Shown here: piece after piece, positions 4,832 through 60,614 of the stretch | Layout: each line of letters begins with the position of its first letter | How positions within the stretch are numbered: the first letter of the stretch is position 1 | Source of the DNA: Natrinema salinisoli | Lineage (GTDB): Archaea > Halobacteriota > Halobacteria > Halobacteriales > Natrialbaceae | DNA: 64,000 nt | Direction: 5' to 3' | Assembly (NCBI RefSeq): GCF_020405205.1 | Contig: NZ_CP084469.1 | Span: 2,666,001-2,730,000, forward strand | Program-made: the position numbers and the translations under genes | The notes under the pieces: generated by a model | Seen by the model: the letters and a program-made list of their open reading frames with translations, nothing else | Told to the model about the DNA's origin: nothing | Database searches by the model: none

Positions 4832-5941
4832 ATGACAGACACGGACGATATCCTGTTCGACGCGGTCGATCTCGGCGACGAGACGCTCGCGAACCGGGTC
4901 GGTCTCGCGCCGATGACGCGAACCAGCGCCACCGAGGACGGGCGAGCGACGGCCGAGATGGCCCGATACTACGCGAAGTTCGCCCGCGGAGGCTTCTCCG
5001 TCCTCATCACCGAGGGCACCCATCCAGACGACGCGCACAGTCAGGGCTACGACAACCAGCCCGGCCTCGCCACCGACGAGCACGTCGCGGCGTGGCGGCG
5101 AGTGACCGACGCCGTCCACGAGGAGGGCGCACCGATCTTCGCCCAGCTCATGCACGCCGGCGCGCTCTCCCAGGGGAACCGCTACACCGACGAGACGGTC
5201 GGTCCCTCGGCCGTGCAGCCGAAAGGCGAACAACTCGAGATGTACGGCGGCGACGGGGAGTTCCCCGAACCGCGGGAACTAACGAGCGACGATATCGACG
5301 ACGTGATCGAGGGGTTCGTCGCCGCCGCGGAGCGCGCGGTGAAGGCGAACTTCGACGGCGTCGAGGTCCACGGCGCGAACGGCTACGTGCTGGACCAGTT
5401 CCTCACGACCTACACGAACCGGCGCGACGACGAGTACGGCGGGGACGTCGAGAATCGGATCCGCCTGACCGCGGAGGTACTCGAGGCGGTTCGGGACGCC
5501 ACGCCCGACGATTTCGTCGTCGGTGTCCGCCTCTCCCAGAGCAAGGTCAACGACCCGGACTACCGCTGGCCCGGCGGCGAGGACGACGCTGCGGTCATCT
5601 TCGACGCGGTCTCCGACGCCGGTGCCGACTACATCCACGTCACAGAGGAGGACGTCACGGCACCGGCGTTCGACGAGGGGCCGACGCTCTCGGAACTCGC
5701 GGATCGGTACGGTGACGCACCCGTGATCGCCAACGGTGGACTCGAGGATACCGACGCGGCGCGAGCGACCGTCGAAGGGGGTGCAGACCTGATCACGCTC
5801 GGGACGGGCGCGCTCGCAAACCCCGACTGGCCGACCCGCGTCGCGGAGGGCCGCCCGCTCGAGGCGTTCGACTTCGGACGTATCCTCCAGCCCGACGCCG
5901 CCATCGACGAATCGGAAGTGCCGGCACCGGCGGACGACTAA
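4832..5941 (+). CDS. NADH:flavin oxidoreductase, old yellow enzyme family
   Basis: A 369-aa TIM-barrel flavoprotein that reduces activated C=C bonds (enoates, quinones) using FMN and NAD(P)H. Family features visible: N-terminal LANRVGLAPMTR, the FAQLMHAGA segment, the substrate/FMN-binding VHGANGYVLDQFL, NRRDDEYGG, and the C-terminal phosphate-binding VIANGGLED..GADLITLGTGALANPDW. There is no C-terminal Fe-S/FAD reductase extension, so it is the single-domain OYE type rather than a 2,4-dienoyl-CoA reductase. The physiological substrate cannot be read from sequence. A short T-run lies 46 nt after the stop. Confidence 0.92.
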   Translation: MTDTDDILFDAVDLGDETLANRVGLAPMTRTSATEDGRATAEMARYYAKFARGGFSVLITEGTHPDDAHSQGYDNQPGLATDEHVAAWRRVTDAVHEEGAPIFAQLMHAGALSQGNRYTDETVGPSAVQPKGEQLEMYGGDGEFPEPRELTSDDIDDVIEGFVAAAERAVKANFDGVEVHGANGYVLDQFLTTYTNRRDDEYGGDVENRIRLTAEVLEAVRDATPDDFVVGVRLSQSKVNDPDYRWPGGEDDAAVIFDAVSDAGADYIHVTEEDVTAPAFDEGPTLSELADRYGDAPVIANGGLEDTDAARATVEGGADLITLGTGALANPDWPTRVAEGRPLEAFDFGRILQPDAAIDESEVPAPADD

Positions 5942-5986
5942 GGGGCGCGACTCGCCGTTCGGAAACCGGGGACCGCGCCAGACCGC

Positions 5987-5992
5987 TTTTTT
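5987..5992 (+). terminator. T6 run after the flavin oxidoreductase gene
   Basis: A run of six T follows a GC-rich stretch 46 nt past the stop codon at 5941 and 23 nt before the next ATG. Archaeal transcription termination at short U-runs makes this a plausible terminator. It may equally belong to the promoter region of the M28 peptidase gene. Confidence 0.4.
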
Positions 5993-6014
5993 CGATCGCC
6001 GCAGAAGAACGAGT

Positions 6015-7376
6015 ATGAACGACAGCGATCCGGCCCTCGAGCTCGCGATCGGCCGTGGGTGGACCGACGATCGAGCCTGGGAGTTGCTCACCCGACTGAC
6101 CGAACTTCCCCATCGGATGGGCGGTTCCAGCAGCGAGCGCCGGGCCGCCGAGATCGTCCGCGAAGCGCTCAGCGACGCGGGTCTCGAGACCGTGCGAATC
6201 GACGAGTTCCCGATGCAACACTGGGAGCGAGGGACGACCGAGTTCGCGGTACTCGAGGGGGCGGCGGACGACGCCGATCGAATCGACCGCTCGTTCGAGG
6301 CGATCGCGCTGCCGTACGCGCCGGCGGGCGACGTCGAGGGACCGCTCGTGGATATCGGCTACGGGACGCCCGAGGAGATCGAAGACGCGGATCTCCGAGG
6401 CGGGATCGCCGTCGCGAGCACGATGACGCCGTCCGGCCAGCGGTTCGTCCACCGGATGGAGAAATTCGGCCACGCCGTGGCAGCGGGAGCGAAGGCGTTC
6501 GTCTTCGGCAACCACGTCCCCGGCCAGTTGCCGCCGACGGGCGCGTTGAAGTTCGACGCCGAGGCCGCCGTTCCCGGCATCGGCGTCAGCGCCGAAACCC
6601 ACGACTGGCTCGTCGACTACGCCGAGCGCGGCGCGCGGGCTCGACTTCGGGTCGACGCGACGACCCGGGAGGACTCGAGCCAGAACGTCCACGGAACGCT
6701 GGGTCCGGAAACGGGCGCGGAGGTGCTCCTCCTCGCTCACTACGACGCCCACGACATCGGGGAAGGCGCGCTGGACAACGGCTGTGGAATCGCGACCGTC
6801 GTCGGCGCGACCGCGGTCCTCGCGGCGATCGAAGACGAACTCGAGTGTTCCGTCCGGATCGCCGGCGTCGGCTGCGAGGAGATCGGCCTGCTGGGTGCGG
6901 AGGCGCTGGCCGACGAGCTGGACCTCGAGTCGGTCCGCGCGGTCGTCAACGTCGACGGTGCGGGGCGGTTTCGGAACCTGCGAGCGCTCTCCCACGGCAC
7001 CGAGGCGCTCGCGGATCTCGCCGACGACGTGACCGACGCGGTCGGACACCCGGTCGTTCACGAGCCGGATCCGCATCCGTTCAGCGACCACTGGCCGTTT
7101 CTGCGGGCGGGGGTCCCGACACTGCAACTCCACAGCGAGCCGCCGGCTGGCGAGGAGCGAGGGCGGGGCTGGGGGCACACGACGGCGGACACGCGCGACA
7201 AGGTCGATCCCCGGAACCTCCGGGAACACGCGGTGCTGACGGCGTTACTCGTTCACGAGCTGACGGCTCGAGATGTGCCGCGGATCGACGTGGACGAGCT
7301 TCGCGAACGATTGCGCGACCAGGAGTACGAGTCCGGAATGCGCGCCGCGGAGATGTGGCCCGCGGAATGGTCGTAA
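6015..7376 (+). CDS. M28 family metallopeptidase (aminopeptidase type)
   Basis: A 453-aa di-zinc exopeptidase. The order of ligands is recognisable: LLLAHYDAHD (His and the catalytic Asp), GALDNGCGIATV (bridging Asp), GVGCEEIGLLGAEA (catalytic Glu plus Glu ligand), AVVNVDGAG (Asp) and the late histidine in GWGHTTADTRDK. A PA-like insert probably spans residues 85-200 (VEGPLVDIGYGTPEEIEDADLRGGIAV). No signal peptide is visible, so it is probably cytoplasmic. Its stop codon is almost in contact with a long palindromic repeat. Specificity (aminopeptidase or dipeptidase) is not determined. Confidence 0.88.
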   Translation: MNDSDPALELAIGRGWTDDRAWELLTRLTELPHRMGGSSSERRAAEIVREALSDAGLETVRIDEFPMQHWERGTTEFAVLEGAADDADRIDRSFEAIALPYAPAGDVEGPLVDIGYGTPEEIEDADLRGGIAVASTMTPSGQRFVHRMEKFGHAVAAGAKAFVFGNHVPGQLPPTGALKFDAEAAVPGIGVSAETHDWLVDYAERGARARLRVDATTREDSSQNVHGTLGPETGAEVLLLAHYDAHDIGEGALDNGCGIATVVGATAVLAAIEDELECSVRIAGVGCEEIGLLGAEALADELDLESVRAVVNVDGAGRFRNLRALSHGTEALADLADDVTDAVGHPVVHEPDPHPFSDHWPFLRAGVPTLQLHSEPPAGEERGRGWGHTTADTRDKVDPRNLREHAVLTALLVHELTARDVPRIDVDELRERLRDQEYESGMRAAEMWPAEWS

Positions 7377-7381
7377 ACTAT

Positions 7382-7457
7382 AGTAGGCACTGAAAGTCAT
7401 TGCCCACCTCATCGCAACGCGGTATGCGATGAGGTGTGAATCGTTTCAGTGTCTACT
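7382..7457. repeat. 76-bp imperfect palindrome between convergent genes
   Basis: The outer arms AGTAGGCACTGAAA (7382-7395) and TTTCAGTGTCTACT (7444-7457) pair with one mismatch. The inner arms CACCTCATCGCA (7405-7416) and TGCGATGAGGTG (7425-7436) pair perfectly around the 8-nt loop ACGCGGTA; a weakly paired stretch separates them. The right arm supplies the last codons and TGA stop of the small membrane-protein gene on the minus strand. The size and structure suggest a mobile palindromic repeat (MITE-like or a transposon-end remnant) rather than a simple terminator. No second copy was noticed in the window. Confidence 0.75.
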
Positions 7458-7691
7458 AGTTTCGGCGTCGACCGCAGTCCGGACGATGCGAGCGACGCCC
7501 AGCGTCGCGACGAACGTTCCGACGAGGACGAGCAAGCCGAACAGGACGACGCCGAGCGCGGACGCACCCACTTCGGGGTGGTTCCGCAGCGGCAACGTGA
7601 GGCGGAGTCCGAAAAAGAAGACGAGGACGCCTGCAGCGACGCGAATCGACGCACGCCAGTACGCACCGTACTCTTCGGGCGACAGTTCCAT
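7446..7691 (-). CDS. Small two-helix membrane protein, unknown function
   Basis: An 81-aa protein with an acidic N-terminus (MELSPEEYGAYWRAS) and two hydrophobic segments, about residues 14-33 (IRVAAGVLVFFFGLRL) and 43-65 (ALGVVLFGLLVLVGTFVATLG). The last residues (TSRH) and the stop codon come from the palindromic repeat at 7382-7457, so the original C-terminus may have been different. It lies 55 nt downstream of truA on the same strand and may be cotranscribed with it. I do not recognise the family. Confidence 0.65.
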   Translation of the reverse strand: MELSPEEYGAYWRASIRVAAGVLVFFFGLRLTLPLRNHPEVGASALGVVLFGLLVLVGTFVATLGVARIVRTAVDAETSRH

Positions 7692-7746
7692 GTGCCGAGG
7701 TGTGTCCTCGGCCGTGAAAAACGCTCGTACGCGCGTCGGTCGTCCG

Positions 7747-8583
7747 TCAGCGCATCCCGTCCGCCACTTGCCCGGTGACTCGAGCCCCCGTTCGCCGGTC
7801 GATGCGGCGGCGATCGAACACCGCTCGAGCGCTCTCGGCCGCCGCCTCGTCGATCTCGAACGCGAGATCCGGGTAGTGGACGTCGGTCAGGACCAGCGGT
7901 TCGGGCGGTGCGGGTGCGACTCCCTCGTGGCCCGGGAGCGGCTCGGGGTCGAGAACGCGGTCTATCTTCGCGAGGGACGACTCGCCGGCACCGACCGCGC
8001 GAGCGAGCGAGACGAGCCGACGGACGAGTTCTCGTGCGAACCCGCCAGCACTGACCGTGACGACGAGGTAGTCCCCGTCCCGGTTCGCCTCAAGGGCGAG
8101 CGAGCGCTCGGTGTTGTGGTCGTCGGGCGTGAGATTGTGGACATCGTGGCTGCCGGAGAGCCGCTCGCAGGCCGCGTGGAATCGGTCGTCGTCGACGGCG
8201 TGCGCGACTCCCCCGTCTTCCACGGCCGGTGCGTACAGATGGTACGTGTATTCCCGACGGCTCGCGTGATGGGTTGCGTGGAAATCTTCCGGCGCGTCGG
8301 CCGCCGCCCACGCACGGATATCGGCCGGCAGCTCGGCGTTCAGCGCTCGCGGCGCGAGCCAGTCGGGTGCCTCGAGCGCGATCGTCTGTGCCAGTGCGGA
8401 GACGCCCGCATCCGTACGGCCGGCGGCGGCGTAGCCGTCGGGTTTGTCCGCATCAGACTCCAAAACGTCGAGTGCGCGGAGGGCGTCGAAAATCGCGTCC
8501 TCGACGGTGGGGACGTCTGGCTGGCGCTGGAAGCCGTGATAGTCCGTGCCGTCGTAGGCGATCCGGAACGCGCGAGGAGCCAT
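7747..8583 (-). CDS. truA: tRNA pseudouridine synthase A
   Basis: A 278-aa TruA/PUS3 family enzyme that makes pseudouridine at positions 38-40 of the tRNA anticodon arm. The N-terminal RIAYDGTDYHGFQRQP is diagnostic. The catalytic aspartate sits in AAGRTDAGVSALAQ, and the later FHATHHASRREYTYHLY and GGFARELVRRLV segments also match the family. The start at 8583 (MAPRAFRIAYDG) leaves only a few residues before the conserved first strand. The small membrane-protein gene follows on the same strand. Confidence 0.94.
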   Translation of the reverse strand: MAPRAFRIAYDGTDYHGFQRQPDVPTVEDAIFDALRALDVLESDADKPDGYAAAGRTDAGVSALAQTIALEAPDWLAPRALNAELPADIRAWAAADAPEDFHATHHASRREYTYHLYAPAVEDGGVAHAVDDDRFHAACERLSGSHDVHNLTPDDHNTERSLALEANRDGDYLVVTVSAGGFARELVRRLVSLARAVGAGESSLAKIDRVLDPEPLPGHEGVAPAPPEPLVLTDVHYPDLAFEIDEAAAESARAVFDRRRIDRRTGARVTGQVADGMR

Positions 8584-8705
8584 CGGGTCTCGAGTCGATC
8601 CAGCGGGGCCAGCGTGTTATACTGTTCGCTGTTCCGGTGGCTGGAGCACGTCCGTTCACCAGCACTTCGTGTACTCCTCAAGAACAGTCGAATTTATTAC
8701 TTTTC

Positions 8706-9083
8706 ATGGAGGATTATGCGAGGATGAACGTGGTCGAGTCCGCTCGACGATGTACCGAGCATATGCTCGGTCGTATCGCGATCGTTCTGATCGGGATCGT
8801 CGGCCTCTACGGAGCGATGACGCTGTATCCACCACTCTACCACGTCGTCAGGTGGTCGATCCCGATTACCGTCGTTCTCTGGGGGGTTTCGCGGTTCCAT
8901 TTGTACGGGTTTCGCCGGCCGCTGACGGTGATCGCCGGCTGTCTCCTGATACTCGAGGGGATCACTCGAGGACTGTTTCAATTCGTCCCACTGAGCGAAC
9001 TCGGCGGTGCCGTCGCCAATCTGGTACTCGTGATCGGCATCTTCGCCGAGATGTACGCTCAACACTACCGTGAACGTGAATAG
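8706..9083 (+). CDS. Small polytopic membrane protein, unknown
   Basis: A 125-aa protein (119 aa if the second ATG at 8724 is used) with four probable membrane segments: IAIVLIGIVGLYGAMTL, WSIPITVVLWGVSRF, PLTVIAGCLLILEGI and GAVANLVLVIGIFAEMY. An AT-rich stretch at 8690-8698 sits about 25-30 nt before the ATG at 8724, which would favour the shorter leaderless form. It is divergent from truA and followed 53 nt later by the TRIC-type channel gene. No family recognised. Confidence 0.6.
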   Translation: MEDYARMNVVESARRCTEHMLGRIAIVLIGIVGLYGAMTLYPPLYHVVRWSIPITVVLWGVSRFHLYGFRRPLTVIAGCLLILEGITRGLFQFVPLSELGGAVANLVLVIGIFAEMYAQHYRERE

Positions 9084-9136
9084 AAGGACGTACCGAGACG
9101 TGGCACTCAAGAGACTCGCTCTCGTAGGCGAGCGTA

Positions 9137-9793
9137 GTGAGTCAGGACGTCATCGGAGTACTGTTCGGCGACCCGTTTGCCGTTATGAACGCGATCGGCC
9201 TGGTCGCGTTCGCACTCGTCGGGTCGTCGAAGGCGATTCGCGAGGAGTTCGACGTCTTCGGAATTCTCATCGTCGGGCTGGCGATGGCGTTTGCCGGTGG
9301 CGCAACGCGCGATCTCCTCGTCACACGAGTGCCGTTAGCACTCCAGTCCCCGCTCGAGATCGGTTTAGGACTACTCGGCGTTGTCCTGGCAATCGCTCTG
9401 AGCGTCGTTTTGTCGTCTCCAGATACGCATCCGATTACGCTCGTCGCGGACGCGATCGGACTCGCTGCCTTCGCGACGACCGGTGCTATCGTCGCGACTG
9501 AAGCGGGTGTGTCAGCGTTCGGTGTCGTCGCGATCGCGACGATCAACGCCGTCGGAGGGGGTGCGGTTGCGGATATCCTCCTCGATCGAGCCCCGTTCAT
9601 CCTCTTCGAGGACTTCTATGCGAGTTGCGCCGTCCTCGGTGGAAGTGCGTACTGGCTCGCGGGAACGGTGGGGGCGACCGAGAGTACGGCTGCTGTCGCG
9701 TGTGCGGTCGTGACCGTTGTGACTCGGTTAGCCGCTGTCACGTATAACTGGCATCTCCCGACGGTACAGAAGTTGGGACTACTACGCGACTGA
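9137..9793 (+). CDS. TRIC-type (UPF0126) cation channel protein
   Basis: A 218-aa membrane protein with about seven helices arranged as a tandem duplication of the TRIC/UPF0126 unit. Each half begins with a helix of the type NAIGLVAFALVGSSKAIREEFDVFG and has a glycine-rich GGATRDLLV (first half) or GGGAVADILL (second half) loop; the second half starts ADAIGLAAFATTGAI. Prokaryotic relatives form trimeric cation channels. The start is taken as GTG at 9137; the first ATG, at 9185, would remove only residues before the first helix and cannot be excluded. Confidence 0.88.
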   Translation: MSQDVIGVLFGDPFAVMNAIGLVAFALVGSSKAIREEFDVFGILIVGLAMAFAGGATRDLLVTRVPLALQSPLEIGLGLLGVVLAIALSVVLSSPDTHPITLVADAIGLAAFATTGAIVATEAGVSAFGVVAIATINAVGGGAVADILLDRAPFILFEDFYASCAVLGGSAYWLAGTVGATESTAAVACAVVTVVTRLAAVTYNWHLPTVQKLGLLRD

Positions 9794-9998
9794 GGAAGCG
9801 GATGTAGCGCCACAATTCAGCAGATTCGATTGTGAAGAGTGGACGGATCTCCGTTCGGTTCGCATCCGTAGTTACTGCGAGTGCTACGTCCGAGAATCAG
9901 AGTAACGTCTGATAGTCGAACTCGAGTCAGCGGTAAGTACGGAAGCAACTCACCGTCCCTCACGAAACGTTTTCTGTGGCAACTCCCTTGAGACAGGT

Positions 9999-10220
9999 AT
10001 GTCCACGACTGTTGCAACACCCGACGCGGAAGAGACCTGTGTATACTGTGAGTCCCGTATTTTCGATCACGATCCCATCTGTGTCCGCGATTGTGACGAC
10101 GACTGTGGCTCTCCTCTGTACTTCTGTAACTACGCCTGTCTCTCAGCGTACATTGACGAGAACAGCCTTACCACGGGCGACGCATGTGAGTGGAACCCCG
10201 GCGAAAACGGCTGTTGCTGA
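9999..10220 (+). CDS. Small Cys-rich zinc-finger protein
   Basis: A 73-aa protein with paired cysteines: CVYC near residue 14, then C..DC..DC in the middle, a FCNYACLSAYI motif resembling the C-terminal half of TRASH/MYM-type zinc fingers, and a terminal CC. It probably binds one or two zinc ions. Small proteins of this type are abundant in haloarchaea and mostly uncharacterised. No strong TATA box is seen just upstream. It stands next to other small zinc-ribbon genes, but on the opposite strand. Confidence 0.7.
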   Translation: MSTTVATPDAEETCVYCESRIFDHDPICVRDCDDDCGSPLYFCNYACLSAYIDENSLTTGDACEWNPGENGCC

Positions 10221-10340
10221 TCGGCGGTTTCGGTACATTCGCAAATGTACATATCGAACCCGCCATTCAGCTACAGGAATAGCTCTAACTGAAGAGATCC
10301 ACCGACCAACTGCTGCGATGACCACTTCCGAACAGCACAC

Positions 10341-10505
10341 TCAAAAGGGAGTGCGGAACAGCCGCGCTCGAACCTCGGCCGACAAATCGGCCGTTCGATC
10401 GAACTGCGTGATCCGGTCGCCGTCGGCGATCGCCAATTCGCAGTCGCCACGGAGCCACCAGCCGCCGACCGGATCGGGGCCGGAGAGCACCGCACCGCAG
10501 GCGAG
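10341..10505 (-). pseudogene. Degenerate zinc-ribbon gene fragment in frame with the preceding stop
   Basis: Reading on past the TAA of the winged-helix gene (10508-10506) in the same frame gives 54 codons before TGA at 10343-10341, with no ATG. The segment ACGAVLSGPDPVGGWWLRGDC aligns with CEAVLPLRDPLIGWWLCDDC of the zinc-ribbon gene at 10929-11069, and the DNA itself is clearly similar. The two CxxC pairs are broken: the first Cys is replaced by the stop codon position and the third by Arg. I read it as a decayed duplicate. The alternative is a short GTG-started protein. Confidence 0.55.
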
Positions 10506-10820
10506 TTAGATCCAATCCTCGGGAAGTTCGTCCCGGTGCCGTACCATCATCTCCAGGAGCGGGCTGATTTCGTCGAACCGCGGTCCCTTCGTCACCACGT
10601 GATTCTCCCTGTCCCAGTCGATGAAGCCGTAGTCTTCCAACAGGGGGAGATGCGTGTGTTCCATCTCGGTGAGGAGCGCCGCCAGTTCCTCGTCAGTCGT
10701 CTCCATATCCCCGATGTAGAGTTTCGAGTCGTCCTCCGGGTTGTGAGACAACATGTGGACCAGCAATCGACGGCGTTGAACGTTCCCGATTGCTTTGAAA
10801 AAACGACCCGCGTTGGACAT
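10506..10820 (-). CDS. Winged-helix protein (DUF7344-like)
   Basis: A 104-aa protein, MSNAGRFFKAIGNVQRRRLL..., with the haloarchaeal winged-helix pattern: helix (RRRLLVHMLSH), acidic linker, helix (TTDEELAALLTEMEHTHLPLLEDYGFIDWD) and a short wing (NHVVTKGPRFDEI). Such proteins usually regulate transcription. The ATG at 10820 is chosen over the upstream ATGs because the TATA-like AGTAAAG at 10844-10850 lies about 27 nt away, giving a leaderless message. Its frame continues after the stop into a degenerate zinc-ribbon segment. Confidence 0.7.
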   Translation of the reverse strand: MSNAGRFFKAIGNVQRRRLLVHMLSHNPEDDSKLYIGDMETTDEELAALLTEMEHTHLPLLEDYGFIDWDRENHVVTKGPRFDEISPLLEMMVRHRDELPEDWI

Positions 10821-43107: not shown

Positions 43108-43425
43108 ATGTCGACCGAATCGATCAGTGACCGGCGCGAGCACATCCGCTCAGTTAGCGTGACGGCGCTGTCCGCGCTGCTGGGCGTCGGTGCGGCGCTG
43201 GCCTCCGCGGCCTGGGTCGGGGTATCCGAGGCAGCGGCCCAGAACACGCAGACGCTCGCGTTCGTCTTCGGCGCGATCTTCGTCCAGTATCTCCTCATCA
43301 ACGTCTCGGGGATCTACGGCGAGGACGAGTTCGGGACGAAACACTACCTGTTCATCGCGTTCATGACCTTCGCCCTGTGGTTCGTGACGTGGGGCATCCT
43401 GCTCATGTCGGAGTACACGGGCTAA
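43108..43425 (+). CDS. Small membrane protein upstream of RLI (EMC6-like candidate)
   Basis: A 105-aa protein with three membrane helices: about 17-37 (VTALSALLGVGAALASAAWV), 48-68 (LAFVFGAIFVQYLLINVSGI) and 80-100 (LFIAFMTFALWFVTWGILLM). The N-terminus is charged and short. Size, helix number and position directly before the ABCE1 gene (2 nt apart) fit the archaeal EMC6-like group, although I cannot test that by alignment. The close spacing indicates co-expression with RLI. Confidence 0.7.
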   Translation: MSTESISDRREHIRSVSVTALSALLGVGAALASAAWVGVSEAAAQNTQTLAFVFGAIFVQYLLINVSGIYGEDEFGTKHYLFIAFMTFALWFVTWGILLMSEYTG

Positions 43426-43427
43426 CC

Positions 43428-45242
43428 ATGGCGGACGACAGCATCGCAGTCGTCGACCTGGACCGGTGTCAACCCGACCGGTGTAGCTACGAATGCAAGA
43501 ACTACTGCCCGCCGAACCGCACGGGGAAGGAGTGTATCACACTCCGCGGCGAGGACGCAGCGGAGGGCCAGCCCGAACAGATCCACATCTCCGAAGAGAT
43601 CTGTCTGGGCGAGACCTGTGGGATCTGCGTCGAGAAGTGTCCCTTCGACGCCATCGAGATCATCAACCTCCCCCAGGAACTCCAGGACGAACCGGTCCAC
43701 CGCTACGGCGAGAACGCCTTTTCCCTGTACGGCCTCCCCGCACCGCAGGAGGGGCAAGTCACCGGTATCCTCGGTCCCAACGGGATCGGGAAGACGACCG
43801 CCGTCCGCATCCTCGCCGGCGAACTCGAGCCCAACCTCGGCCGTCACGAGGAAGAGCCGGGGTGGGACGAGGTCCTCGAGGCCTACCGCGGGACCGAACT
43901 GCAAGATTACATCGCGGACGTCCGCGACGGGGACATCACGATCGCGCGAAAACCACAGTACGTCGACCAGATCCCGAACAGCTTCGACGGGAACACCCGG
44001 CAACTGCTCGAGCGAACCGACGAGCGCGGTGCCCTCGACGAACTGGTCGAACGGCTCTCGATCGGGCCCGTCATGGAGCAGTCGATCGACGACCTCTCCG
44101 GCGGGGAGCTCCAGCGGGTCGCCATCGCGGCCACGCTCGCCCGGGATACGGACTTCTACTTCCTCGACGAGGTGACGCCGTATCTGGACATCGGCCAGCG
44201 CGTGACCGCAGCGCGGCTGATCCGCGAACTCGCCGAGAAGGAAGACAAGTCCGTGCTCGTGGTCGAACACGACCTCGCGATTCTGGACCTGCTCGCGGAC
44301 ACGCTCCACGTCGCCTACGGTGAGCCGGGTGCCTACGGTGTGATCACCTCGCCCAAGTCCGTCCGCAACGGGATCAACGAGTACCTCTCGGGCTATCTCG
44401 ACAACGAAAACATGCGGATCCGGCCGAACCCCATCGAGTTCGAGGAGCACGCGCCCCGGAGCGTGACCCGCGCCGACACGCTCGTCGAGTACCCGGACCT
44501 CACGAAGAGCTACGGCGACGGCGAGTTCAGCCTCGAGGTCGAGGGCGGCACGATCCGGGAGAACGAAGTCCTGGGCGTTGTCGGCCCCAACGGGATCGGG
44601 AAGTCGACCTTCGCCAAGCTGCTAACCGGGAACCTCGGGCCGGACGAGGGCGACGCCGATCTCGATCTGGACATCGCCTACAAACCCCAGTACGTCACCA
44701 TCGACCAGCACATGCGGGTCGACGCCTTCCTCTCCTCGATCACCGACCAGTTCGGCTCCTCCTACTGGAACACCGAGATCGCCCAGCCCCTCCAGTTGGA
44801 ACGGATCATGGAGCAGAACCTCTCCGACCTCTCCGGCGGGGAGCGCCAGCGGGTCGCGATCGCGGCCTGCCTGTCGGACTCGGCGGACCTCTACCTGCTC
44901 GACGAGCCCTCCGCCCACCTCGACGTCGAACAGCGGGTCCAGGCCGCGAAGGCCATCCGGCGCTTCGCCGAACAGCAGGACGCCACCGTGATGGTCATCG
45001 ACCACGACATCTACATGATGGACCTGCTCGCGGACCGGCTGATGGTCTTCGACGGCGAACCCGCCGTCCACGGCCGCGCCGGCCAGCCACAGCAGATGCG
45101 CGAGGGCATGAACGAGTTCCTCGCGAACCTCGAGGTCACGTTCCGCCGAGACGAGCGCACCTCGCGACCGCGGATCAACAAGCCCGAGTCACAGCTGGAT
45201 CGCCAGCAGAAAAGCGAGGGCGAGTACTATTACGCGCCGTAA
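43428..45242 (+). CDS. Ribosome recycling ATPase RLI/ABCE1
   Basis: A 604-aa soluble ABC protein that splits ribosomes after termination and acts in initiation. The N-terminal ferredoxin-like domain (about 1-75) has two Cys clusters (CQPDRCSYECKNYC..C and CLGETCGICVEKCPFDAI) for two [4Fe-4S]. Nucleotide-binding domain 1 has GPNGIGKTT and LSGGELQRV. Domain 2 has GPNGIGKST and LSGGERQRV, each with Walker B (YFLDEVTPYLD; YLLDEPSAHLD). The ATG at 43428 (MADDSIAVVDLDRCQ) puts the first Cys cluster at the usual distance. It is cotranscribed with the small membrane protein. Confidence 0.97.
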   Translation: MADDSIAVVDLDRCQPDRCSYECKNYCPPNRTGKECITLRGEDAAEGQPEQIHISEEICLGETCGICVEKCPFDAIEIINLPQELQDEPVHRYGENAFSLYGLPAPQEGQVTGILGPNGIGKTTAVRILAGELEPNLGRHEEEPGWDEVLEAYRGTELQDYIADVRDGDITIARKPQYVDQIPNSFDGNTRQLLERTDERGALDELVERLSIGPVMEQSIDDLSGGELQRVAIAATLARDTDFYFLDEVTPYLDIGQRVTAARLIRELAEKEDKSVLVVEHDLAILDLLADTLHVAYGEPGAYGVITSPKSVRNGINEYLSGYLDNENMRIRPNPIEFEEHAPRSVTRADTLVEYPDLTKSYGDGEFSLEVEGGTIRENEVLGVVGPNGIGKSTFAKLLTGNLGPDEGDADLDLDIAYKPQYVTIDQHMRVDAFLSSITDQFGSSYWNTEIAQPLQLERIMEQNLSDLSGGERQRVAIAACLSDSADLYLLDEPSAHLDVEQRVQAAKAIRRFAEQQDATVMVIDHDIYMMDLLADRLMVFDGEPAVHGRAGQPQQMREGMNEFLANLEVTFRRDERTSRPRINKPESQLDRQQKSEGEYYYAP

Positions 45243-45296: not shown

Positions 45297-45818
45297 TCAG
45301 CTAATCAGCCGCTGACAACTCCCACAGAGGTTCTCTTCTTTGATGTCGACTTCGCGGACCGTCGGCGAGAAGTTCATCACGCAGCGGTTGTTGTCGCAGT
45401 GCTCGAGCCCGTAGGTGTGGCCGATCTCGTGGACGATCTCCTTGCGGACGCGGTCTTCGAAGATGTCGGCGGCGCTCTGATTCGAGAAGCCGCCGTCGCT
45501 CGAGGTCTGGAGGCGGTAGGTCGAGACGACGCTGCCGCTGCCGTCGAGGTAGGCCAGGCCGAAGACGTAGTTTCGTCGCCGGTAGAAGAGGTCCTGCGGG
45601 GTGATCGCGATGTTCTTCTCGCCGCGGCCAACCCGTTCGGCGAGCTGGATGAAGGTTTCCGCGGAGTACTGGTTCCGGTCGGAGTCGTAAGCGCCGTTGG
45701 GGACCGACTGCGAGTCGTTGACCGACACGTCGCAGTCGTAGACCGATCGCAACGCGGCGGAGGCCGCCCGCTTGACCTCGGCGGAGACGTTGCCGACCGG
45801 CACGATATCGACGAGCAT
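45297..45818 (-). CDS. amzA: Archaemetzincin
   Basis: A 173-aa metallopeptidase. The active site is VHEIGHTYGLEHC (HExxHxxGxxHC), with a nearby CVM and a final CGSC completing the structural Cys4 zinc site that distinguishes archaemetzincins. The N-terminal VDIVPVGNVSAEVKRAASAAL is typical. Substrates in vivo are unknown. The ATG at 45818 is chosen because relatives start with that first strand. It is divergent from the UPF0146 gene with only 39 nt between starts, so they share a promoter region. A catalytically dead relative is encoded at 58206. Confidence 0.93.
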   Translation of the reverse strand: MLVDIVPVGNVSAEVKRAASAALRSVYDCDVSVNDSQSVPNGAYDSDRNQYSAETFIQLAERVGRGEKNIAITPQDLFYRRRNYVFGLAYLDGSGSVVSTYRLQTSSDGGFSNQSAADIFEDRVRKEIVHEIGHTYGLEHCDNNRCVMNFSPTVREVDIKEENLCGSCQRLIS

Positions 45819-57980: not shown

Positions 57981-58205
57981 ACCGTTCGAGGGAACTATCA
58001 TAAACGTTTCAACGAATGTCGCGGCGGCTGTCGTGAGCCGACGTCACCACGGTCTCGAGAAGAGGGCGACCCCACACCTCGGTTTTCCAACCAATCAAGG
58101 AGGAGTCCGGACGGAAACCGCACGAACGCAGCGAGTACGTTCATTCCTGACTGTAGCCGACGGACACCGAAATGTATTTCTCGGTACCTCTCAGTTGCGA
58201 ATATA

Positions 58206-59231
58206 ATGACCGTCTTTCCCCACGGCAACACTCCTCGTACCGTGGTGATACCGGTCGGCGATCCGTCGCCGGCGGCGTGTGAGGAAGTCGCCGAAGCGCT
58301 CCGCGAGACGTTCGAACTGCCGGTTCCGATTCGAGACCCGATCGAAGCGCCTCCCCGAACCGATTCGAACGCCCACGTCGGGAGGCGGTTCCTCGAGTAC
58401 CTCAGGGACGAAACGTCGGACGCGGATCTCGCCGTCGGCGTCACCGACGAGAGGATCAGAATGAGTCGCGACCAGACCGCCCTGTTCGGCGTCGCAGGCG
58501 AGTTCGATACGGTCGGCGTCGTCTCGACGGCTCGTCTGCTCGAGGGCCGCGAACCGACCGATCTCGAGTGCGAGCGGCTGGCCAAAGAGGGCCGCTCCGT
58601 GGTCGGCACTATGCTCGGACTGCGGACGTACCTGCATATGCGTGGCGAGGATCAGCCGTGTGTCGTCGCACCCGGAGAGACCCGCCGCCAGCTGGATGCG
58701 GCACCGACGACCTACTGCGAGGACTGCTGGAACGCGCTCACGGACGACGCGACGTATCCGAAACCGCCAGTCCCCGACGACTGGGTCGTCCGAACGAATG
58801 CGGAGTCCGACGCGACCGGTACCGACGCGGACGGCAATCGCCGAGCGTGGGTGGACTATCTCCTGGCACCGATCGGGTTCGCCGTCCTCGCGGTGATCGA
58901 GTTCGTCGCACTGTTGGGTCCCGTCGTCGATCGGCTTCCGCGTCCCGGTACCGGGTCCGCTCGAGACCTCCCGGAATCGGTGCACACGATCTATCGGATC
59001 ACCAAATTCTGGTCGAACGTCGCACTCTATCTCGGGTCCGCATTCTGTTGGTTGCTCGTCACGGTCTCCGTCCACGACCGGATTTTCGGCCCGGATCTCT
59101 CCGACGGCGTCGCTATCGGGCTCCTGCTACTGAGCGTCGTCCTCGGCGTGTACACGGCCTGGTTCGTCAAAGCGATCGTCGGTGGCATCTACGACGGCCT
59201 CCGGGTCGTGGCCGCCGAGGAATGGTCGTAG
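58206..59231 (+). CDS. Membrane-anchored archaemetzincin-like protein lacking the catalytic site
   Basis: A 341-aa protein. Residues 10-175 align with archaemetzincin: TVVIPVGDPSPAACEEVAEAL; DADLAVGVTDERIRMSRDQTALFGVAGEFDTVGVVSTARL; ERLAKEGRSVVGTMLGLRTY; then CVVAP and YCEDCW. Compared with the archaemetzincin at 45297, HEIGHTYGLEHC is replaced by SVVGTMLGLRTY, so all zinc and catalytic residues are gone, while three cysteines of the second zinc site remain. Residues about 215-240 and 275-330 hold two or three membrane helices, and the C-terminus is GLRVVAAEEWS. It is probably a non-enzymatic binding or regulatory protein. Confidence 0.75.
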   Translation: MTVFPHGNTPRTVVIPVGDPSPAACEEVAEALRETFELPVPIRDPIEAPPRTDSNAHVGRRFLEYLRDETSDADLAVGVTDERIRMSRDQTALFGVAGEFDTVGVVSTARLLEGREPTDLECERLAKEGRSVVGTMLGLRTYLHMRGEDQPCVVAPGETRRQLDAAPTTYCEDCWNALTDDATYPKPPVPDDWVVRTNAESDATGTDADGNRRAWVDYLLAPIGFAVLAVIEFVALLGPVVDRLPRPGTGSARDLPESVHTIYRITKFWSNVALYLGSAFCWLLVTVSVHDRIFGPDLSDGVAIGLLLLSVVLGVYTAWFVKAIVGGIYDGLRVVAAEEWS

Positions 59232-59232
59232 T

Positions 59233-60018
59233 TCAGGCTCCGAGCAGGAACTGCGCGATCCCGGTCAGCCAGAGGAACACCGCGAGACCGACGACACCTT
59301 CGAGCACGCCCAGCGAGACGCTTTTGAACAGCACTCGTCGTCGCTCCGCGAGCAGCGTTTCTGGCGGCTTATCGGAGATGAGTCCCCCACCATCTTCGTG
59401 AGCCGTCACGAGTACCGCCTTCCCGTCGATCGCAGCGGCATCGTCGTCCGGCACCGCCCGGCCGTAGACGAACACCTCGTCGCCGGGTGCGAGATATTCG
59501 TAGGCGTATTTTCGGTCGCGCTCGAGCCCCTGTTCGGGCAGGTCGTTCGCCGCAGCGAACGAGGCGAGATCATCATCGAGGGACTCGTGACTGGCGATCT
59601 CCCGCGACCACTGCCGATCCGCGGAGAGGTCCAGTCGCAGGTCCGTCGCGTCGACGCGGACGCGGGCCACGTCAGTCTCGTCGGCATCGACCGCCTGCTC
59701 GAGGAGGAACGGCGGCGCGATCCGTTCGTCGACGTGGGCCGTCTCGAGTTTGTTGGTATCCTCGACCGTCACTTCGTAACAGACGGCTCGCTCCCGCCCG
59801 CCGAACGGGACTCGCTCCAGCCGTCCGTCGGGTCGGGCGGTCCCCACGAGTGCGGTTTTACCGAGAGCAACCGACTCGAGTGACGATCGCGGCCGGTCAA
59901 CGATCGCGGCCCGCTCCTCGTACCGCTCGAATCCGGAGTGGACGGTCTCGATCCCGACCACGACGAGCGCGCCCGAGCCCAGAACCAGTGCCGCGTAGAG
60001 AGCGATCGCGAGGATCAC
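59233..60018 (-). CDS. GIDE-domain membrane protein
   Basis: A 261-aa protein. It has an N-terminal helix (MILAIALYAALVLGSGALVVVGI), then a GIDE/Mulan-type beta domain (30-230): VGTARPDGRLERVPFGGRERAVCYEVTVED, LRLDLSADRQWSREI, YAYEYLAPGDEVFVYGRAV and AVLVTAHEDGGGLISDKPPETLL. A last pair of hydrophobic segments ends the chain. The RING finger of eukaryotic relatives is absent. The start codon is GTG, overlapping the LemA stop by four bases (GTGA), so the two proteins are translationally coupled. Confidence 0.8.
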   Translation of the reverse strand: MILAIALYAALVLGSGALVVVGIETVHSGFERYEERAAIVDRPRSSLESVALGKTALVGTARPDGRLERVPFGGRERAVCYEVTVEDTNKLETAHVDERIAPPFLLEQAVDADETDVARVRVDATDLRLDLSADRQWSREIASHESLDDDLASFAAANDLPEQGLERDRKYAYEYLAPGDEVFVYGRAVPDDDAAAIDGKAVLVTAHEDGGGLISDKPPETLLAERRRVLFKSVSLGVLEGVVGLAVFLWLTGIAQFLLGA

Positions 60019-60614
60019 GTCTCGGTTGACGACCCGACAGCCAGACGCTCACCGACGTCGACGCCCTCGTGGGCGCCCCGGGACGCGACGAAGGGCTGTC
60101 GCCGGGTAAACCGGTGACGGCTGGCGAACACGGACTCCGGAAACGTATTTAGCAACGCGTTGTACGCGGCGACGGCCTCGTTGTACTGTTCGCGGCGATC
60201 CTCTAGCCGCTGCTCGAGGCGCTGGATCGAGTCCGAAAGCTCCTCGAAGCGGTCGTTCGACGCCAGCTCCGGGTACTCGTCCGACAGCGCGTACACCTCC
60301 TGTGCCGTTTCCCGAAGCGAAACCGCGACCGCGGCGGCGTTTTCGGGTGACTGCGCGTCGATCGCTCCCTCGCGAGCGTCGACGAGACCCTCGAGCAGAT
60401 CCCGTTCGTGGGAGACGTGCTCGTTCGTCAGATCGATCAGTTGCTCGAGTTCCGATCGTCGCCGTTCCAGCAGGACTTCGATGTCGGCCCAGGTCTTCTC
60501 GCAGCGCTCGTGGGCCTCCACGAGCCGCGCCTGTGCGTGCGAGAGATACCGAACGACGCTGTATCCGACGACGAGGCCCCCAAACCCCACGACCACCGTT
60601 CCGAAGATACTCAT
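60015..60614 (-). CDS. LemA family protein
   Basis: A 199-aa protein. It has an N-terminal membrane helix (FGTVVVGFGGLVVGYSVV), then a long helical domain typical of LemA: EKTWADIEVLLERRRSELEQLIDLTNEH.., ALSDEYPELASNDRFEELSDSIQRLEQRL and YNEAVAAYNALLNTFPESVFA. The C-terminal 35 residues are polar. LemA-GIDE pairs recur in prokaryotes; function is not established, possibly at the cytoplasmic membrane. The ATG at 60614 begins MSIFGTVVVG; upstream in-frame ATGs are rejected because they precede the helix with no family similarity. Confidence 0.88.
   Translation of the reverse strand: MSIFGTVVVGFGGLVVGYSVVRYLSHAQARLVEAHERCEKTWADIEVLLERRRSELEQLIDLTNEHVSHERDLLEGLVDAREGAIDAQSPENAAAVAVSLRETAQEVYALSDEYPELASNDRFEELSDSIQRLEQRLEDRREQYNEAVAAYNALLNTFPESVFASRHRFTRRQPFVASRGAHEGVDVGERLAVGSSTET

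Follow-up and report, generated by a model that had tools for sequence, protein, structure and literature searches.

A membrane-anchored archaemetzincin relative, predicted to lack peptidase activity, and its linkage to LemA and GIDE-like genes in haloarchaea

What does an archaemetzincin relative without its catalytic motif do, and why does it carry membrane helices? The question is raised by a gene on the forward strand at 58206..59231 of a 64,000-nucleotide stretch of the Natrinema salinisoli genome (NZ_CP084469.1, positions 2,666,001 to 2,730,000; hereafter the window). The 341 aa product combines an archaemetzincin-fold domain with C-terminal hydrophobic helices, and an earlier note described it as a catalytically dead, membrane-anchored relative of the canonical archaemetzincin encoded in the same window. 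The reading that we prefer, at a probability of roughly 0.6, is that this protein (hereafter the dead archaemetzincin) is a binding or scaffold subunit without catalytic function in a membrane module whose other members are LemA and a GIDE-like TM-OB-TM protein.

The reading frame was assessed through orthologues, which open with a common M-x-[VIL]-F-P motif and support the ATG at 58206 as the start. A TATA-like stretch (ccgaaatgtatttc) is found about 30 bases upstream of this ATG, within 58160-58205, and is conserved in the closest orthologues; its position agrees with that expected in a leaderless haloarchaeal transcript.

The archaemetzincin-fold domain spans residues 12-180 (58239..58745, forward strand; 7-180 in the VIA-align model). 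The NCBIfam archmetzin model (NF033823) matches residues 13-178 with E=3.7e-12, at a score of 46.5 that lies far below the curated cut-off of 145, as is expected for a dead relative of the enzymes. The comparison protein, the canonical archaemetzincin at 45297..45818 on the reverse strand (HEIGHTYGLEHCx4CxM...CxxC), matches the same model above its cut-off (E=1.1e-55), and BLASTP aligns the two proteins at 22% identity (E=4e-9). A profile of 11 orthologues matches four archaemetzincin sequences of the PDB with E-values from 5e-15 to 6e-8. The Pfam M54 model gives no significant match to the single sequence (E=0.097), so the relationship is claimed on the strength of NCBIfam, the orthologue profile and the predicted fold. 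Over 160 aligned residues, the AlphaFold model superimposes on archaemetzincin 4axq with Z=19.3 and an rmsd of 2.8, whereas other metzincins reach Z of about 12. Its mean pLDDT is 66.8, mostly 75-93 within the domain, with low confidence at residues 181-255 and also at 145-151, beside a proposed His ligand. The similarity is beyond chance, and the protein is an archaemetzincin relative by descent, with the element order of the canonical enzyme as the earlier note had proposed. (The canonical gene lies tail to tail with an ABCE1/Rli1-like gene at 43377-45242, assigned by eye from ferredoxin-like Cys motifs and two ABC cassettes.)

The catalytic motif of this domain is lost. In the alignment with the canonical enzyme, HEIGHTYGLEHC has become SVVGTMLGLRTY at S131 to Y142 (58596..58631, forward strand), so that SVVGTMLGLRT stands where HExxHxxGxxH would be. 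The substitutions are H to S131, E to V132, H to T135, H to T141 and C to Y142; they remove all three zinc-binding His, the catalytic Glu and the first structural Cys, exactly as the earlier note had described, and in addition the Met of the Met-turn is replaced by Val. The protein is predicted to have no peptidase activity. For comparison, in AMZ-tk the mutation E183Q leaves minimal activity (PMC4681839). Relative to the archaemetzincins of family M54 (AmzA; PDB 2x7m, 3zvs, 4axq, 3lmc), the dead archaemetzincin shares the fold of residues 7-180, three of the four structural-zinc Cys and two Gly of the active-site helix region, but has lost the catalytic residues, the first structural Cys and the Met-turn Met, and has gained membrane helices.

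The structural zinc site has had a different history. The complete Cys4 pattern of the enzymes (Cx4CxMx17CxxC) is broken by the absence of the first Cys and the Met, but C152 (58659..58661) and the pair C171-x-x-C174 (58716..58727), all on the forward strand, occupy columns that are invariant in 17 of 17 aligned members. The fourth ligand follows a regular pattern across these members: three (L041, L072 and L077) keep the old Cys, and the other 14 have a nearby His, which in the window protein is H144 (58635..58637, forward strand), the candidate substitute for the lost Cys. This regularity suggests that the structural zinc is probably kept, in a Cys4 or a Cys3His site. Such a site could itself be the working part of a metal or redox sensor, in which oxidation or metal loss reshapes the domain and the signal is passed on by way of LemA or the membrane helices. 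None of the three Cys varies, in contrast to most of the active site, and a regulatory role for the archaemetzincin Cys4 zinc finger has been put forward as speculation (PMC3427221). However, structural zinc sites are often kept for folding alone, so that conservation does not amount to sensing, and the conserved gene core contains no regulator gene; we regard the sensor as unlikely.

Downstream of the domain, hydropathy analysis predicts three helices in the window protein, at residues 219-237 (58860..58916), 272-290 (59019..59075) and 302-320 (59109..59165), all on the forward strand. The earlier note had counted two or three added helices. Three is right for this protein, but the tail core common to the group is its C-terminal part, in which one or two helices score; the second and third helices fall within this shared part, whereas the first scores only in the window's clade and in one further member (L009). 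A tail profile built from 13 members matches the four most distant tails with E=1e-19, 6e-10, 3e-9 and 1.5e-5, and the best of 200 shuffled tails reaches only E=0.19, which indicates common descent of the tails throughout the group. These results support membrane anchorage of the dead archaemetzincin. The domain is probably on the cytoplasmic side, since the protein has no signal sequence, carries a Cys-rich site and has positive residues next to its helices.

A contig search with the single protein matched only Natrinema salsiterrestre, and was replaced by whole-genome profile searches covering 125 genomes of the family and 391 of the class, plus a follow-up of genomes carrying second copies. 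Tailed dead forms were found in 19 haloarchaeal genomes, 11 from the window's own family, two from family f6 and six from family f3. HExxH was not found in any of the 19 tailed loci, and the losses are alike throughout: none of the 17 aligned tailed members keeps more than one of the zinc His, and the catalytic Glu survives only in the L072/L077 type, which has none of the His. Thus the earlier description of a dead, membrane-anchored protein is borne out by the sequence of the window protein and extends to a haloarchaeal group. A search of plasmids found no relative of the dead archaemetzincin or of the GIDE-like protein.

The occurrence of the dead form is patchy (17 of 391 class genomes), and the module is therefore dispensable. 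The dead copy also diverges fast relative to the live archaemetzincin. Patchiness and rapid divergence are what would be seen if the gene were a functionless, decaying duplicate, an explanation that we consider barely tenable. Among five close orthologues dN/dS is 0.30-0.54 (a simple NG86 estimate for GC-rich genes), indicating purifying selection; the frame is open in 19 genomes, Cys and Gly positions are invariant, and the partner genes are conserved. Purifying selection and conserved linkage largely refute decay.

Genomes with the dead archaemetzincin also retain the canonical gene, as seen from second matches in the searches. The dead copy might then act on its active paralogue, competing for substrates or presenting them to it, and active relatives are often regulated by dead homologues (PMC11266112). 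Such regulation is very unlikely here, however, since the two genes are unlinked (13 kb apart in the window) and nearly all haloarchaea have the live gene without the dead one.

The origin of the tailed forms was addressed with a tree of the N-terminal domain. That all tailed forms share one origin is not rejected (p-AU 0.486), nor is it recovered in the tree; the argument for it comes from the shared tail and shared neighbours. Four further copies that lack HExxH and are not beside LemA or GIDE genes were found at L047, L076, L079 and L078 (genomes G227, G364, G193 and G406); the first three are untailed, and L078 has a different hydrophobic tail. In another untailed copy (L080, G336:C64:24104-24643), HHAGH replaces HExxH through a Glu-to-His change while the three zinc His and the Cys are kept, and this copy is possibly a zinc-binding dead form. 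The existence of untailed dead copies without LemA or GIDE (L047, L076, L079 and L080) makes it seem that catalysis was lost more than once in haloarchaeal archaemetzincins, which the tree cannot resolve.

We then considered the neighbourhood of the dead archaemetzincin. A GIDE-like membrane protein is encoded convergently at 59233..60018 on the reverse strand, with 1 bp between the two stop codons, and its start is overlapped by 4 bp by a LemA family membrane protein at 60015..60614, also on the reverse strand. The corresponding families are LemA (PF04011) and GIDE/MUL1 (PF12483). The LemA assignment is secure by the Pfam gathering score (E=7.8e-32; 110.6 bits against 26.2). Pfam GIDE matches six of 16 GIDE-like orthologues (best E=4e-6), with no match in the window's own copy, for which the GIDE name is a weak one. 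In the GIDE-like protein, two predicted TM helices flank a beta domain that in the predicted model is closest to OB folds (Z of about 9); Foldseek gave no significant match to this model, only general OB folds. The C-terminal RING of MUL1-type ligases is absent, as the protein stops just after the second TM helix.

Of the 19 genomes, 18 have the LemA and GIDE-like genes next to the dead archaemetzincin; in the exception (G023), the dead gene has neither nearby. The outer flanks of the trio vary between genera, and in two genomes (G033 and G030) the order is rearranged to archaemetzincin-LemA-GIDE, all on one strand. The differing flanks and changed order indicate that the linkage has survived rearrangement. 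The association also holds when started from the neighbour. A search of 391 genomes places 16 proteins in the GIDE subfamily at E<=3e-99, every one encoded beside a dead archaemetzincin, and the next match is at E=3e-32; members that built the profile score highly by construction, and the result is that none of the 16 is an orphan. Extending the search to a phylum sample of 393 genomes gave no further member of this subfamily. The three proteins also diverge in step: their pairwise distances are correlated (r=0.93-0.94; 0 of 2000 permutations), which in part reflects shared species history. These patterns imply that the dead archaemetzincin, LemA and the GIDE-like protein constitute a putative three-gene membrane module, although linkage of the genes is not proof of physical interaction.

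Other arrangements were seen at individual loci. In one genus, represented by L112 and L113 (G283 and G325), the dead archaemetzincin's neighbour resembles the diphthamide synthesis gene dph2 by eye. At the second-tier GIDE loci L104-L107, the dead archaemetzincin was not recognised nearby among the matches listed. One of them, L107 (G348:C3:134000-150000), has five tandem GIDE-like genes around a single LemA gene at about 4900-10800, with no archaemetzincin recognised. At L105 (G337:C49:29000-41000; 5225-6520, forward strand), a GIDE-like domain follows a separate in-frame N-terminal membrane domain, and LemA was not recognised nearby. In the literature searched, we found no paper that relates LemA to GIDE or explains their joint role in archaea, and no archaemetzincin partner of either.

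An archaemetzincin without activity does have a precedent. CarG of Myxococcus xanthus, an archaemetzincin homologue with HQxxH in place of HExxH, has no proteolytic activity and is the obligate partner of CarD (PMC3427221; PMC8156234). The earlier note had regarded an archaemetzincin pseudoenzyme as undescribed to its knowledge, and CarG contradicts this, as does the NCBIfam family NF033824 ('non-proteolytic archaemetzincin-like protein'), which we take from its name and taxon to be the CarG family. Family M54 goes unmentioned in a 2024 review of pseudoenzymes among the metallopeptidases (PMC11266112). Both CarG and the haloarchaeal protein derive from archaemetzincins, lack protease activity (by prediction in the latter) and are encoded next to a conserved partner gene. 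CarG, however, is soluble, keeps two zinc atoms and four Cys, and partners the DNA-binding CarD, whereas the haloarchaeal form has lost the catalytic zinc site, is apparently membrane-anchored, and has LemA and the GIDE-like protein as putative partners. The CarG-type motif with its three zinc His, HQxxHxxExxHC (PMC8156234), is absent from it. The features that look new are a lineage anchored in the membrane, a catalytic metal site that is lost in full, and the LemA/GIDE module.

By analogy to CarG, the dead archaemetzincin could be a membrane-tethered regulatory adaptor that controls, by binding to it, a transcription factor or some other soluble partner. The window protein does match NF033824 (E=1.7e-6), but at 27.9 bits against a cut-off of 250 and more weakly than it matches the general archaemetzincin family, and its conserved partners are membrane proteins and not a DNA-binding protein. 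An adaptor of this type is improbable.

The scaffold or binding subunit proposed at the outset would have arisen in steps. A haloarchaeal archaemetzincin copy would have lost its catalytic zinc site, while its structural zinc site was remodelled, as Cys3His or Cys4, but retained; a C-terminal membrane anchor would have been acquired, and the three proteins would now be joined in a single complex on the cytoplasmic side of the membrane. Within this complex, the former substrate groove or the outer surface of the dead domain may hold a peptide or partner. The preserved fold suggests such binding, as do the roles known for CarG and for dead ADAM proteins. CarG shows that a dead archaemetzincin can serve as an obligate binding partner, and in ADAM22, ADAM23 and ADAM11 membrane-anchored dead metzincin domains serve protein-protein interaction. 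The ADAM proteins differ in being eukaryotic and extracellular members of family M12 with disintegrin and other domains, and their relation to the dead archaemetzincin is one of remote fold only (Z of about 10.5). That the bound peptide or partner serves envelope or membrane-protein quality control is the least certain step, a tentative guess from the nature of the partners. In its most specific and rather doubtful form, the proposal is of a three-protein archaeal complex with the dead domain as the peptide-recognition subunit of a LemA-GIDE membrane-protein quality-control machine. If true, this would be a previously undescribed complex and an archaeal analogue of the pseudoprotease adaptors in eukaryotic membranes.

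These observations add a membrane-anchored lineage to the archaemetzincin pseudoenzymes, for which CarG is the case described before. LemA and GIDE-like proteins are widespread, and a third conserved partner, whose fold is recognisably that of a dead protease, provides a handle for testing both.
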